Shown here one piece after another: positions 57,524 through 64,000 of a stretch of 64,000 nucleotides of DNA. Origin of the DNA: Acidithiobacillus acidisediminis. GTDB taxonomy: Bacteria > Pseudomonadota > Gammaproteobacteria > Acidithiobacillales > Acidithiobacillaceae. The position numbers and the translations under genes were made by a program. Where the stretch lies: the NCBI RefSeq assembly GCF_023277115.1, contig NZ_JALQCS010000001.1, forward strand, positions 1,668,001 to 1,732,000, in the 5' to 3' direction. The notes below the pieces were generated by a model. The model was not told the origin of the DNA and ran no database searches. It worked only from the letters and a program-made list of their open reading frames with translations. The stretch's first letter is position 1. Each line of letters opens with the position of its first letter.

Positions 57524-57565
57524 TGGAGAAAACTCCTCTGCACAAGATACAGATCAGGAATTTAG

Positions 57566-57630
57566 CCCTGGAACCAGGGACACAAGATAGGACCTTTAGA
57601 TATTGTCTTAACCCTATACCGCACGTGCGG
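57566..57630 (-). other. Inverted repeats upstream of trxA
   Basis: Two dyads lie between tRNA-Ser and trxA. CCCTGG-AA-CCAGGG (57566-57579) would form a small hairpin in the leader. CCGCACGTGCGG (57619-57630) is a perfect 12-base palindrome. The palindrome could be an operator or the stem after tRNA-Ser; it is not followed by a T-tract. Confidence 0.3.
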
Positions 57631-57663
57631 CATAATCAAGCGTTTGCAACCTCCAGGTGGAAC

Positions 57664-57756
57664 TGGCGGAGAGAGAGGGATTCGAACCCTCGATGGAGTG
57701 TTTAGCCCCATACTCCCTTAGCAGGGGAGCGCCTTCAGCCTCTCGGCCATCTCTCC
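57664..57756 (-). tRNA. tRNA-Ser (anticodon GCT)
   Basis: 93 bases including an encoded CCA. The acceptor stem GGAGAGA/TCTCTCC, the long variable arm typical of class II tRNAs, the TTCGAAT T-loop and the anticodon loop CTGCTAA (GCT) are all present. It decodes AGC/AGU and lies upstream of trxA on the same strand. Confidence 0.95.
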
Positions 57757-57766
57757 GTGGGGCGGA

Positions 57767-57795
57767 GTGTAACGCGGAGTTTTGGTGTACGTCAA
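57767..57795 (-). promoter_or_regulatory. Promoter of tRNA-Ser(GCT)
   Basis: On the minus strand TTGACG (57790-57795) and TTACAC (57767-57772) are 17 bases apart. The tRNA 5' end is about 11 bases past the -10, and a GC-rich CGCCCC discriminator follows. The -35 is strong and the -10 weak. Confidence 0.5.
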
Positions 57796-57854
57796 AATCG
57801 CGGCAGGACGAAATGCGAAGGCGCCCAAGTCTGGCAGCTACAGATCGCATGTCC

Positions 57855-57860
57855 TACAAT
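57855..57860 (+). promoter_or_regulatory. -10 element of tRNA-Arg(TCT)
   Basis: TACAAT ends 10 bases before the tRNA 5' end. CTGGCA (57831-57836) 18 bases upstream is a weak -35 candidate. Confidence 0.45.
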
Positions 57861-57870
57861 ATTATCGTCT

Positions 57871-57947
57871 GCGCCCATAGCTCAATCGGATAGAGCAACG
57901 GCCTTCTAAGCCGTAGGTTGGGGGTTCGATTCCCTCTGGGCGCGCCA
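57871..57947 (+). tRNA. tRNA-Arg (anticodon TCT)
   Basis: 77 bases with encoded CCA. The acceptor stem GCGCCCA/TGGGCGC, the D-loop CTCAATCGGATAGAGCAA, the anticodon loop CTTCTAA (TCT) and the GTTCGATTC T-arm are all present. It decodes AGA/AGG and is divergent from tRNA-Ser. Confidence 0.96.
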
Positions 57948-58030
57948 AGTCTATGCCCTCCGTCTTTGGCTTCCGGACCGCAGCCCGCAGGAGTCGCATG
58001 CTGGAGATGGGAGCCAACAAGGAGTGAGTC

Positions 58031-59266
58031 GTGAATAGCTATACCGCTCATCCCCGCCAAGGGGACAAATCGAATTCTGTGTTTTTTGAGGAATGGTTGC
58101 CGCGTCTTCTGGAAGAGCGCGATCGCATGGGGCTGACAGAACTGATCCGCCGCATCGATGCGTTAATGATCACTCTGGAGCCGGGACATTCCGCCGCTTA
58201 TATCCGCGAGCTGTGTCTGATGACACCGTACAATTATTTGGTGACCCTGGATACGGATCAGCATCTGACGCACATCTTGCGGATCAACATGAATTTTCCT
58301 GATGTCTTGGTGCGCGAGGTCAAGGATCCCGATCTGCGCGGAATCTTTCGCAGTTTGAACGAGGTATATCCGATCGGCTCGAAAAGGCCAAACTCTCGTT
58401 ACATGGGAGAGATATTTCAAGTCAGCAATCTCCATGAGGTGGTAGAAATACAAAAATCGAGGGAGGTCCGATTTTTCAATCAGGAGCAGATTCGGCAGAT
58501 GGAGCTGCCCGGAAACATGGCCATCGTCAAGCCATCTCCATACACCCACAATGTCGTTGGCTATTGGGAACGCCCCGATGACGATATCCGCGTCTATGCT
58601 TTGGGTAATTCTGGAATCGATCCGCAAATGCAAGAGGCCTTTGAACAGGCGCAGGCACTGCGAGAACAGCTCAAGATCAGCGAGCTCCTCCTCCCTATCG
58701 ATCATTTGGCAACGCGGGTATACAGCCAGAACCGGGAAGTAGCGATCCTCGAGTACCTTGGCCTGTCTAGTTACTATTATTGGGGTTCGTATGACATTCC
58801 CGATCAAAATTCTTCCACGAATGTTACTAAGAGCCTGCATTTTGACGATGTTCTCTACAGCCCGGCGAAAGTCTTTACCGCGGCTGATCATCCCTACTTC
58901 TGTAACCACCTGTTGCAGGTGCCGTCACCCACAGAGTCCTTCGTGCGGAACTTTGGGCCACGCTTGCACCATATTGCCGTTGCCGTTCAGGATGGGGAAA
59001 CCGATGGGAAAACCAACATCGACTATGTCGTGTCACGCCTCGCAGAGTGCGGGCAAGAATTTCTGTTGCAGGTTATCGGTTCTGAGCAGGAAGGACTGAA
59101 GCAAATATTCTCGCGTGCCTCGACCCATACCTCGCTGATCATCGAATACGTCCAGCGCTTTCATGGGTTTCAGGGCTTCTTTGCGAAGCAAAACGTGGCA
59201 GATCTCACGGCTGCAGCCGGCGCTGATGAAAGTTTGCGCAGCCTCGAGGCGGAGGCAAAAAAATAG
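58031..59266 (+). CDS. VOC-superfamily protein with HPPD-like C-terminal half and unrecognised N-terminus
   Basis: 411 residues. Residues about 215-385 resemble 4-hydroxyphenylpyruvate dioxygenase. A 2-His-1-Glu metal triad can be placed at His225 (PIDHLATRV), His313 or His314 (RLHHIAVAV) and Glu372 (SLIIEYVQR), and the end LKQIFSRAS...GFQGFFAKQNVADL follows the HPPD pattern. Residues 1-210 are not recognised and make it longer than HPPD. No tyrosine-degradation genes are nearby, so the substrate is unknown. The start is GTG at 58031 with AAGGAG 8 bases upstream. It may be transcribed with tRNA-Arg, 83 bases before it. Confidence 0.6.
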   Translation: MNSYTAHPRQGDKSNSVFFEEWLPRLLEERDRMGLTELIRRIDALMITLEPGHSAAYIRELCLMTPYNYLVTLDTDQHLTHILRINMNFPDVLVREVKDPDLRGIFRSLNEVYPIGSKRPNSRYMGEIFQVSNLHEVVEIQKSREVRFFNQEQIRQMELPGNMAIVKPSPYTHNVVGYWERPDDDIRVYALGNSGIDPQMQEAFEQAQALREQLKISELLLPIDHLATRVYSQNREVAILEYLGLSSYYYWGSYDIPDQNSSTNVTKSLHFDDVLYSPAKVFTAADHPYFCNHLLQVPSPTESFVRNFGPRLHHIAVAVQDGETDGKTNIDYVVSRLAECGQEFLLQVIGSEQEGLKQIFSRASTHTSLIIEYVQRFHGFQGFFAKQNVADLTAAAGADESLRSLEAEAKK

Positions 59267-59859: not shown

Positions 59860-60088
59860 GCGCGTTTCTCCTCGTTATGACGCCACAGGAACAGAGCTGT
59901 CGCCGACAAAATAGGGCAGCACAACATCACAATCGAGTATAGTGCATTTAGATTCGCCTTGGATAACGTACCTGCCTCTAGCTATGCGATAGCTCTCCGG
60001 TCTCGCGCGCCAGTGTAACTGTCAACTATTTTCCAGCGATAGAAAACGGAGTACAGTCAAGATAGGATTGCAGGACGGGAGAGACATC

Positions 60089-60685
60089 ATGTATCGAATC
60101 AGCGTGTTACCCATCGGAATCGTGGCACTACTTTTCGGAATTGGCTCAGCTTTCGCGGACAATGCTCAGGTTCCAAGCCCCCAAGTCCTCTGGCAGCAGA
60201 TCCAAGTGTTGCAGAAGTACCATGCCTTTTTGCCAGAGAGTCATCCGTTCCAAGTGGGCTCGCGGTCCGTGGATGTCTACACAACGGATCTCGCCAATAC
60301 TCCTGCAATCCAATCTATAAAAAGATCTGGAAGTATCGTCAGAGTGACCAGGTACGAGGACGGGAGCCTATTAGTAAAGGAAAATTTTAACAAAGAAAAG
60401 AAATTGACAGGCATTACCGCCATGCTCAAAGCCAAGGGCTATGATGCAGGAGACCGCAACTGGGTCATGGCTGCTTACAAGCCAGATGGCTCGGTGGCCG
60501 CGTTTGGCAAGGTGGGCTCCTGTATTGCCTGCCATGTGATGGTGACAAAGCAAGACTTTATCTTTGCACCGCCTCCCCAGCAACTGCTCTCCGTAAGCAC
60601 ATGGAAAGCGTTTTTTCCCAAACAAAGCATGAATCCAGCCTACGTGGCCTTGATCCAAACTCACCCAAAGTCAGTGCTACGCTAA
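60089..60685 (+). CDS. Cytochrome P460-family c-type haem protein
   Basis: 198 residues. A signal peptide at 1-23 (ending AFA) exports it, and CIACH at 145-149 is the covalent haem motif. The central SIVRVTRYEDGSLLVKENF and RNWVMAAYKPDGSVAAFGK, followed by the CxxCH, follow the P460 fold order. Characterised P460s oxidise hydroxylamine and carry a lysine-haem crosslink, and related proteins handle NO. The activity here is unknown, and the crosslinking lysine cannot be assigned by eye. I start at the ATG at 60089 with GGGAGAG upstream. A short gap separates it from the next small gene. Confidence 0.72.
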   Translation: MYRISVLPIGIVALLFGIGSAFADNAQVPSPQVLWQQIQVLQKYHAFLPESHPFQVGSRSVDVYTTDLANTPAIQSIKRSGSIVRVTRYEDGSLLVKENFNKEKKLTGITAMLKAKGYDAGDRNWVMAAYKPDGSVAAFGKVGSCIACHVMVTKQDFIFAPPPQQLLSVSTWKAFFPKQSMNPAYVALIQTHPKSVLR

Positions 60686-61553: not shown

Positions 61554-61958
61554 GTGGCACAGCGTTTTCTGCTGGATACCAATGTGCTCCTGGCCCTGTT
61601 GCTACAACCCGAGCGGCTGCCTTTCGATGCTCAGGAAGCTATCCGTAATCCGGAGCATCTGGTGTGGTTCAGTGCTGCCAGCATCTGGGAGATTGCCATT
61701 AAGTGTTCTCTGGGCAAGGCCCAGTTTTCCTTCCGTCCCGAGGACATTCATCAGTTGGCCTTGGACTCTGGATTGACGGAATTGCCCATACGCTCTGAGC
61801 ATACCTATCAAGTGGCCCAGTTACCCTGGCACCACCGAGATCCCTTCGATCGCCTGTTGGTGGCCCAGGCCATCTGTCTGCCCTCTCCACTGTGGACCAC
61901 AGATGCTTCCCTCGCCGTTTATTCCCCTCTCGTCCATATCCTGGCTTGGGCATCCTGA
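61554..61958 (+). CDS. PIN-domain toxin (VapC-like)
   Basis: 134 residues. The PIN acidic residues can be placed at Asp8 (LLDTNVLL), Glu46 (SIWEIAIK), Asp96/Asp99 (RDPFDRLL) and Asp117 (TTDAS). The pattern of SAASIWEIAIK and PWHHRDPFDRLLVAQA is typical of the PilT/VapC group paired with Phd-type antitoxins. Such toxins are Mg2+-dependent RNases that often cut tRNA. The start is GTG at 61554, closely coupled to the antitoxin gene. All catalytic residues are intact. Confidence 0.88.
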   Translation: MAQRFLLDTNVLLALLLQPERLPFDAQEAIRNPEHLVWFSAASIWEIAIKCSLGKAQFSFRPEDIHQLALDSGLTELPIRSEHTYQVAQLPWHHRDPFDRLLVAQAICLPSPLWTTDASLAVYSPLVHILAWAS

Positions 61959-62658: not shown

Positions 62659-62694
62659 AATGTCCCCTTTGTCCAATTCTAGAATGTCCCCTTT
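62659..62694 (+). repeat. Direct repeats at the left end of the insertion sequence
   Basis: AATGTCCCCTTT occurs at 62659-62670 and again at 62683-62694, 24 bases apart. They sit just before the transposase gene, as transposase-binding repeats or part of a terminal inverted repeat would. The right end is outside the window, so the inverted repeat cannot be confirmed. Confidence 0.5.
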
Positions 62695-62732
62695 TGCGTT
62701 GTGGGGGCGGCATGGGCGAGGAGTACAACACG

Positions 62733-64000
62733 ATGAGCTATCGAGAGATGGATCGACTGGAGTTGCTGCAGGCTCTGATGGGTAAGCAGCTCCGGCAACG
62801 GGAGGTCGCCGAGCGGCTGAGTCTGAGCGTGCGCCAGGTCAAACGCCTTGTCGCACGGTATCGGGCCGAAGGGGCCGCCGGGCTGGTGTCCCGGCAGCGC
62901 GGCAAGCGGCCCAACAACCGGATTTTGGACTCGGTCCGTGAATCCGCCATCCAGTTGGTGCAGACGCACTACGCAGACTTTGGGCCAACGCTGGCTCGGG
63001 AGAAATTGGAAGAACGACATGGCTATCAGCTCTCTACGGAGACGTTGCGCCAGTGGATGATGGCCGAAGGTCTGTGGGTGGCGAAGCGGCGCAAGGCGGC
63101 CCGTATCCACCAACGACGGCCCCGACGCCCTTATCTCGGTGAACTGGTACAGATCGACGGCTCGCCCCACGACTGGTTCGAGGAGCGTGGCCCCCGCTGT
63201 ACCCTCATCGTCTTCATAGACGATGCTACTAGCCGCCTGATGGCTTTGCATTTCGTACCAGCCGAGACTACCCAAGCGTATATGGAGACGCTGCGAGCGT
63301 ACCTGAAAGCGCATGGTCGCCCGGTAGCCCTGTACTCCGACAAGCACAGCATCTTTCGCGTCAATCACCCCGATCAGGAGGGAGTACCCACCCAGTTCAC
63401 TCGCGCCCTGCAGACCTTGGATATCCAAGCCATCCACGCCAACAGCCCGCAAGCAAAGGGGCGGGTCGAACGGGCCAATCAGACTCTACAAGATCGCCTG
63501 GTCAAGGAGCTACGCCTGCAGGGCATCTCCGATCTGGAGGCTGCCAACGCCTTCCTGCCGGAGTTCCTGGCCGATTACAACCGGCGCTTTGCTGTCTCCC
63601 CGCAACATCCCCAGGATGCGCATCGTCCCGTACTGCACAACCCAGAAGAATTGTCCCTGATCTTCTGCCTGCAGCACACCCGCAAGCTCTCCAAAAACCT
63701 GAGTTTTCGCTTCCAGAACCGCGAATACCAACTCACGAATTACAGCAGTGGCTACCGCCTACGCGGTGCCAGTGTAACCGTCTGCCAAGCCTTCGACAGC
63801 AGCATTACCTTGCTGTATCAGGGACAGCCCCTAACCTACCGGATCCTCGCCGAGGGTGAGCCCCCCATCCCCTTGGACGATGAGAAAAGCCTGCACTTAC
63901 GTATTGAGCAAGCTGTGAAGGAGCAGGCCCAACGGAGCCACTGGAAACCCGCGCCCGACCATCCCTGGCGACGATACCCTCAGTCTAAGCCCGCTCACAC
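62733..64000 (+). CDS. IS1202/ISNCY-like DDE transposase (3' end outside window)
   Basis: 422 codons are visible without a stop. An N-terminal helix-turn-helix (about 20-45, REVAERLSLSVRQVKRLV) is followed by an integrase-type catalytic core. Asp142 lies in VQIDGSPHDWFE, Asp203 in ALYSDKHSIFRV and Glu246 in AKGRVERANQ, a full DDE set. The phrases DGSPHDWFEERG and YSDKHSIF are typical of the ISNCY/IS1202 group. The ATG at 62733 has GAGGAG upstream; an ATG seven codons earlier is also in frame. The gene looks intact, so the element may be active. Confidence 0.85.
   Translation, partial: MSYREMDRLELLQALMGKQLRQREVAERLSLSVRQVKRLVARYRAEGAAGLVSRQRGKRPNNRILDSVRESAIQLVQTHYADFGPTLAREKLEERHGYQLSTETLRQWMMAEGLWVAKRRKAARIHQRRPRRPYLGELVQIDGSPHDWFEERGPRCTLIVFIDDATSRLMALHFVPAETTQAYMETLRAYLKAHGRPVALYSDKHSIFRVNHPDQEGVPTQFTRALQTLDIQAIHANSPQAKGRVERANQTLQDRLVKELRLQGISDLEAANAFLPEFLADYNRRFAVSPQHPQDAHRPVLHNPEELSLIFCLQHTRKLSKNLSFRFQNREYQLTNYSSGYRLRGASVTVCQAFDSSITLLYQGQPLTYRILAEGEPPIPLDDEKSLHLRIEQAVKEQAQRSHWKPAPDHPWRRYPQSKPAH

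Follow-up and report, generated by a model that had tools for sequence, protein, structure and literature searches.

A strongly diverged HPPD-type protein from Acidithiobacillus, a putative Fe(II) dioxygenase, and its genomic partnership with the Anbu operon

4-Hydroxyphenylpyruvate dioxygenase (HPPD), hydroxymandelate synthase (HMS), which acts in natural product pathways, and HglS make up a small group of 2-oxo-acid oxygenases. HglS, the DUF1338 2-oxoadipate dioxygenase, is described in the available part of PMC7286885 as having a vicinal-oxygen-chelate (VOC) fold, a His-His-Glu triad and Fe(II)-dependent 2-oxo-acid chemistry. The Anbu operon, as far as the accessible portions of two descriptions go, consists of four genes of unproven function, and these portions mention no oxygenase (PMC5666114, PMC6376114); according to the second, none of the functions proposed for it had been confirmed by 2017 (PMC6376114). 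The genes of the system are those for a circularly permuted ATP-grasp (CP-ATP-grasp), Alpha-E, a transglutaminase/DUF2126 amidoligase and the protease homologue Anbu. Here we report on a gene within a 64,000-nucleotide stretch of the Acidithiobacillus acidisediminis genome (contig NZ_JALQCS010000001.1, positions 1,668,001 to 1,732,000 of the forward strand; this whole stretch is the window below), whose product, P0001, is by its predicted structure a whole, strongly diverged HPPD-type protein, and which we think, with considerable reservation, probably is a mononuclear Fe(II) dioxygenase of HPPD/HMS architecture with an accessory role in the Anbu-operon system. Among the matches listed in our literature search no paper ties an HPPD-like protein to the Anbu operon, and the genomic partnership of the two is as such new to the literature found.

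58031 to 59266, plus strand: coding sequence of P0001, 411 amino acids plus stop, recognised by its single open frame, its relatives and the predicted structure.

Exact peptide patterns, searched for in the genome contigs of GTDB, returned 217 stretches, 180 of which encode a relative of P0001. This puts the open reading frame above chance level, and it is a genuine protein-coding gene. For all neighbour counts we kept the best 80 of the 180 relatives (L002 to L081), which are 67-91% identical to P0001 over nearly their full length. Purifying selection on the gene is strong, with a dN of ~0.06 against L002 and L003 while synonymous sites are saturated (pS ~0.8). Among viral contigs there were 27 pattern matches, none of them a relative, and a search of plasmids gave four weak partial matches and nothing else.

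The original prediction had read this gene as an HPPD-like dioxygenase half attached to an unknown domain of 210 residues. The HPPD-like C-terminal half and its position outside the named families hold up, whereas the N-terminal part turned out to be neither unknown nor unrelated. An AlphaFold2 model built from 81 sequences (pLDDT 77.4, pTM 0.82), which replaced a first model from 48 sequences (pLDDT 63.4), contains four beta-alpha-beta-beta-beta modules, at residues ~39-97, 122-195, 220-285 and 314-376, giving the two tandem VOC domains of the HPPD/HMS structural superfamily across the whole predicted length. In VIA-align 2, the joint best matches were the hydroxymandelate synthase 2r5v (Z 23.1, 307 aligned residues, 3.7 Å, 17% identity, model residues 38-401) and human HPPD 3isq (Z 23.1, 316 aligned residues, 3.7 Å, 15% identity, model residues 28-403), while HPPD of P. 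fluorescens (1cjx) reached Z 21.2; every one of the 50 structural matches listed is an HPPD, a hydroxymandelate synthase or an HPPD fusion. Foldseek, the kind of structural comparison proposed with the original prediction, concurs in placing the 81-sequence model within the HPPD/HMS fold (E 1.3e-14, probability 1.00, TM ~0.5-0.6), and the poorer 48-sequence model led to the same fold (Z 16.2). Because the structural match spans nearly the whole length, residues 1-210 would represent a diverged HPPD N-terminal VOC pair and not a foreign domain, and P0001, as modelled, is a whole HPPD-type protein instead of half of one.

58031 to 58642, plus strand: N-terminal module pair, residues 1-204, without HPPD-type metal ligands, delimited by the model (modules ~39-97 and 122-195) and the whole-length HPPD/HMS match.
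58643 to 59263, plus strand: C-terminal module pair, predicted to bind the metal, with the C-terminal helices, residues 205-411, delimited by the model (modules ~220-285 and 314-376) and the alignment.

No Pfam or NCBIfam family covers P0001 or its relatives. NCBIfam yields no match to P0001 at E values up to 1, so that the 277-bit cut-off of the HPPD model TIGR01263 is not reached, and in Pfam nothing scores better than Glyoxalase_4 (E 0.1), a family that 20 of 48 members match (at best 0.013). Placement of P0001 came instead from structure prediction together with one bridging sequence, L144, a protein of 167 amino acids that the family profile A1 detects at E 1.1e-7 and whose own best NCBIfam match is TIGR01263 4HPPD (E 3.5e-22, far under the model cut-off). 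For L144 and two similar proteins from Sinorhizobium plasmids, E values against TIGR01263, their best NCBIfam match, run from 8.6e-22 to 1.7e-26, with scores below the cut-off. Such short HPPD-C-domain proteins (L144, L149 and L150) are the nearest sequences outside the family and have the HHE and GL-Q-F motifs in common with P0001, to which the Sinorhizobium ones are 34% identical over approximately residues 290-392, at a tblastn E of only 0.07-0.1. They differ from P0001 in having a single HPPD-type domain (165-181 aa), in one case fused to chorismate mutase, and their neighbours are aminotransferase or non-ribosomal peptide synthetase (NRPS) genes (L149 and L150 by annotation, L144 by eye). 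As such, P0001 and its relatives form an unnamed and very conserved branch of the known HPPD/HMS superfamily.

The short proteins deserve a description of their own. L149 5770-6315 and L144 1471-1974 (minus strand) encode stand-alone HPPD C-terminal domains of 167-181 aa beside an aminotransferase gene (identified by eye for L144), a half-size HPPD-like group for which TIGR01263 is the best NCBIfam match, far under its cut-off. L150 5521-6303, on the Sinorhizobium meliloti plasmid accessoryA, combines chorismate mutase with a lone HPPD C-terminal domain and is annotated as chorismate mutase only; its cluster holds NRPS, aminodeoxychorismate synthase, prephenate dehydrogenase and aminotransferase genes.

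The alignment with HPPD singles out the following positions of P0001.

58703 to 58705, plus strand: His225, predicted first Fe ligand, aligned with the His of HPPD DHLT.
58970 to 58972, plus strand: His314, predicted second Fe ligand, aligned with the His of HPPD QHIA.
59144 to 59146, plus strand: Glu372, predicted third Fe ligand, aligned with the Glu of HPPD FFE-IQR.
58967 to 58969, plus strand: His313, invariant, standing where HPPD has the Gln that precedes its second His (AtHPPD Gln307), by alignment.
58928 to 58930, plus strand: Pro300, invariant, in place of the Gln of HPPD SQI (AtHPPD Gln293 by spacing), by alignment.
59102 to 59104, plus strand: Gln358, kept, aligned with the Gln of HPPD LLQIF (AtHPPD Gln379).
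59192 to 59194, plus strand: Asn388, kept, aligned with the Asn of HPPD GNF (AtHPPD Asn423); the Phe that follows in HPPD is Val389 here.

All seven residues are invariant across 81 aligned sequences. In the joint alignment His225, His314 and Glu372 fall on the ligand columns of HPPD, and since these are the positions from which HPPD holds its metal, the three residues are predicted, from sequence, to meet in space as a 2-His-1-Glu site of the HPPD/HMS superfamily, much as had been proposed. Where the original prediction had left His313 and His314 as alternatives, His314 emerges as the second ligand, and His313 sits at the HPPD Gln position before it. According to the part of PMC6750108 that is available, the catalytic network of AtHPPD is Ser267-Asn282-Gln307-Gln293, with alanine changes lowering efficiency ~12-fold at Ser267, ~160-fold at Asn282, ~99-fold at Gln307 and ~3722-fold at Gln293. 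With AtHPPD positions assigned by spacing from the ligands, Gln293 has become the invariant Pro300 and Gln307 the invariant His313; Asn292 may be the equivalent of Asn282, and for Ser267 no equivalent could be placed in the alignment. Since the ligands, Gln358 and Asn388 are retained while the Gln293 and Gln307 positions are replaced, the 2-oxo-acid-binding iron site looks kept, but the pocket for 4-hydroxyphenylpyruvate does not.

Could P0001 nonetheless be a true 4-hydroxyphenylpyruvate dioxygenase, replacing the canonical enzyme in tyrosine catabolism? An HPPD fold over the entire length and metal ligands shared with HPPD would be in line with this, as would the window's own genome, where TIGR01263 finds no match and a canonical HPPD is thus missing. 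Yet structural alignments with HPPDs show only 14-15% identity, P0001 itself has no NCBIfam match, and the two replaced glutamines are those whose loss in AtHPPD is costly (~3722-fold for Q293A and ~99-fold for Q307A, in the available text of PMC6750108). Moreover, the next enzyme of the route, homogentisate dioxygenase (PF04209), occurs in none of the 27 carrier genomes chosen for searching; the earlier remark that no homogentisate genes lie nearby extends to the entire genome of the window, in which PF04209 has no match. With two of four network residues replaced and homogentisate dioxygenase in 0 of 27 carriers, classical HPPD function is very unlikely, and we rejected the homogentisate route.

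Nor does the second familiar role of such enzymes fare better. An HMS-like enzyme might supply the 4-hydroxybenzoate ring of ubiquinone in place of chorismate lyase, an idea for which human HPDL is the analogy. P0001 has the same fold as the hydroxymandelate synthases 2r5v, 3zgj and 7yvv, with 2r5v sharing the best structural score (Z 23.1), although identity is 17-18%. Against this, chorismate lyase (PF04345) was found in 25 of the 27 chosen carrier genomes, that of the window included (the misses are G561 and G563), and the recurrent neighbours of the gene belong to the Anbu operon, a context unlike that of the hydroxymandelate synthases. Ring supply for ubiquinone was accordingly rejected, being highly improbable; together, the 0/27 for PF04209 and 25/27 for PF04345 make either of the roles familiar from HPPD-like enzymes unlikely.

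With HglS, P0001 would share the VOC fold, the HHE triad and the proposed Fe(II) 2-oxo-acid chemistry, whereas the ligand spacing differs, being 225-314-372 in P0001 and His70-His226-Glu294 in the HglS text available from PMC7286885. PF07063 (DUF1338) has no match at E up to 1 in P0001 or 48 members, and DUF1338/HglS is not among the 50 structural matches listed, which does not exclude an HglS-type structure. VOC folds are also used by isomerases and lyases. This, and the weak Pfam matches being to Glyoxalase_4, would suit a protein that has kept the fold and works as a non-oxygenase VOC enzyme, or as a binding or regulatory subunit of the Anbu system. We regard such a role as improbable, given that neither the His-His-Glu ligands nor the oxygenase-branch residues Gln358 and Asn388 vary among the 81 sequences and that the fold is of the two-domain oxygenase type.

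The connection with the Anbu operon comes from genomic counts. A tblastn search of the stretches fetched around the 80 relatives found Alpha-E in 55, the CP-ATP-grasp gene in 54, transglutaminase in 36 and Anbu in 20; representatives of these system genes carry the Pfam names PF14403, PF04168, PF08379/PF01841/PF09899 and PF00227. These figures supersede a first clustering of neighbours, which was too low because antisense shadow ORFs displaced genes (ATP-grasp 47, Alpha-E 34, transglutaminase 33 and Anbu 13 of 80). Examination of gene neighbourhoods had also been suggested earlier. In 54 of the 80 relatives, though not in the window itself, an Anbu-operon match lies at most 400 bases from the gene, the distance being counted to where the tblastn match ends, whatever the limits of a called gene. 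In a first count that missed some neighbours, a same-strand system gene lay within 120 bases at 31 of 80 loci, nine of them with a 4-base overlap. At six Methylomonas loci the gene shares 4 bases with the transglutaminase/DUF2126 gene, while at L020, L025 and L050 a 4-base overlap lies between the Alpha-E gene and the start of the oxygenase gene.

At 25 of the 80 loci the fetched stretch lacks a system gene. All 25 are among 33 carrier genomes that were searched for PF14403 (CP-ATP-grasp), a set picked for having no ATP-grasp close to the gene in the first clustering, and 31 of these 33 gave a match. Of the 25, 23 hold an ATP-grasp elsewhere, that is, outside the fetched stretch at whatever distance, so that 78 of 80 relatives have either the system nearby or an ATP-grasp elsewhere in the genome. 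In the phylum sample the gene is present in 7 of 398 genomes, and Alpha-E accompanies it in all seven (7/7, against 212/398 overall); a smaller sample has the CP-ATP-grasp in 60 of 100 genomes. Within the class of G064, 5 of 78 genomes carry the gene, and the CP-ATP-grasp is found in 17 of 78 at E up to 0.001, 14 of them above the cut-off and 13 full-length; all five carriers fall within these 13 (hypergeometric 6e-5, relatedness ignored). The order of G360 contributes 8 of 150 genomes, plus the distant L144. Genome searches gave a full score or nothing, apart from L144 and from L088, a copy that ends early, at residue 266.

Two observations on the ATP-grasp suggest that the gene became part of distinct Anbu operon lineages on more than one occasion. 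One is a contrast in identity between two sets of loci (6 by 12), the first with an ATP-grasp 45-58% identical to that of the window's genome (Methylomonas, Methylotenera and one of the Gallionellaceae) and the second with one more than 66% identical to it (Acidithiobacillus sulfuriphilus, Hydrogenophilales and others): between the sets the oxygenases are on average 76% identical, the ATP-grasps only 51%. The other is an ATP-grasp tree, in which carriers are spread over several clades, so that the labels change 6 times (starred branches force at least 5 of these changes), compared with 28.9 times when shuffled; the count makes no correction for relatedness and treats gains and losses alike. 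For this tree 115 loci were given, 101 had a match and 97 were usable (62 carriers and 35 non-carriers), L050, L062, L159 and L161 being dropped for length or a stop; the choice of loci favours carriers, L029 and L147 are one gene counted twice, and L023, L075 and L078 represent a longer, divergent second type. As a side observation, L060, a metagenome-assembled genome titled Rhizobium sp., has an ATP-grasp that pairs with that of L049 (titled Thiobacillus denitrificans) and neighbour clusters common to both, and its bin is therefore probably mislabelled.

The named groups among the 80 loci are mostly Acidithiobacillus, Thiobacillus and other Hydrogenophilales/Thiobacillaceae, Gallionellaceae and Methylotenera, to which Methylomonas and other Methylococcales, Ectothiorhodospiraceae and Halothiobacillus or Acidihalobacter are to be added; the rest are unclassified bins. 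These carriers are largely sulfur-, iron- or C1-oxidisers. Together with the standalone position of most Acidithiobacillus-type loci, this would fit an Fe-dependent 2-oxo-acid dioxygenase that serves the general carbon metabolism of chemolithotrophs and methylotrophs and whose link with Anbu reflects shared nitrogen regulation or hitch-hiking in the operon. The window's own genome has an intact run of Anbu, CP-ATP-grasp, Alpha-E and transglutaminase/DUF2126 genes on the same contig, at ~1,178,700-1,185,500 (L090 6684-13499), flanked, one further ORF away on each side, by what we take from their look to be an ammonium transporter (amtB-like) gene upstream and ntrB/ntrC-like and glnA-like genes downstream. 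These flanks point to nitrogen control of the operon. Elsewhere, under nitrogen limitation, Burkholderia cenocepacia mutated in ntrC showed log2 changes of -8.2 for DUF404/407 and -9.4 for DUF403 genes, in the accessible part of PMC5491218, and Anbu is stated to rise under nitrogen limitation in work cited in the available portions of PMC5666114 and PMC6376114. Hitch-hiking is however hard to square with adjacency in 54 of 80 relatives, with 4-base overlaps and with partner ATP-grasps that are only 51% identical. Shared regulation, in turn, finds no sigma-54-like site with at most two mismatches before the window gene (57524-58030), the whole window holding 22 such sites where 14.2 are expected. 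A role in general metabolism thus seems to us rather unlikely, though less so than the alternatives discussed above.

Several points weigh against the reading we prefer, an Fe(II) dioxygenase accessory to the Anbu system. The window gene is itself solitary, lying outside the Anbu operon between an unrelated gene and a thioredoxin-rho pair of opposite orientation, and 12 of the 13 loci L002-L014 (mostly Acidithiobacillus) are likewise standalone, some of them with short flanks. Two carriers, L015 and L074, both metagenome bins, have no CP-ATP-grasp match, and two of the 31 matches are partial (G539 and G555). Since the Alpha-E system is far commoner than the gene (212 versus 7 of 398 genomes), the gene is not a core part of the Anbu system; it is an addition to the four-gene operon, as the latter appears in the portions of PMC5666114 and PMC6376114 at hand. 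Replacement of the operon around the gene, or unequal rates, could produce the same contrast in identity as repeated joining. On the side of the fold, a PDB sequence search gave no significant match, and the model has low-confidence stretches at residues 104-122, 299-312 and 388-409, the last two of which contain Pro300 and Asn388. Furthermore, hhalign against 18 HPPDs was weak (probability 4%, P 0.01), though the columns of the second His, the Gln of LLQIF and the Glu do coincide. The sequence link to HPPD is firmer through the L144 bridge than by this direct profile-profile alignment.

How might an Fe(II) dioxygenase contribute to the Anbu system? We infer iron, O2 chemistry, a 2-oxo-acid substrate and the place of the step in the pathway. 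By analogy with HPPD, HMS and HglS, the C-terminal one of the two tandem VOC domains would hold the metal on His225, His314 and Glu372, the 2-oxo-acid group of the substrate would bind Fe(II) in bidentate fashion, and O2 would be activated, with loss of CO2 and hydroxylation of the same molecule. The coupling seen in the genomes suggests that what the dioxygenase makes either goes into the ATP-grasp/amidoligase product or arises from it; the amidoligase would then receive a building block, or have its own product modified. More specifically, and only as a tentative proposal, the gene could provide the oxidation step of an Anbu-amidoligase pathway for peptide or amino-acid conjugates in chemolithotrophs and methylotrophs, in which the dioxygenase oxidatively decarboxylates a 2-oxo acid, perhaps derived from transamination under nitrogen control, to a hydroxy-acid unit for ligation by the CP-ATP-grasp, or else tailors the ligated product. 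If true, this would offer a first chemical handle on the product of the Anbu operon, which is widespread, judging from Alpha-E in 212 of 398 sampled proteobacterial genomes. An oxygenase that accompanies different versions of the operon would restrict the chemistry in those hosts to one involving oxygen, Fe(II) and probably a 2-oxo acid, and such a restriction brings a search for the substrate, by metabolomics of strains that lack single genes, within reach. The protein would also add an unnamed branch to the HPPD/HMS/HglS group.

The gene starts with GTG and is preceded by a candidate ribosome-binding site.

58019 to 58024, plus strand: Shine-Dalgarno-like AAGGAG, 6 bases before the GTG start, read from the sequence and presumed to function as such.

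Further along the window, all on the plus strand, 61554-61958 looks like a gene for a VapC-type PIN-domain toxin, and 62694-63998, which continues past the window end, is by eye a transposase-like integrase ORF whose N-terminus has a helix-turn-helix. Closer to the oxygenase gene, 60068-60685 encodes a probably exported protein of 205 aa with a single CxxCH motif, by eye possibly a cytochrome of the P460 type.

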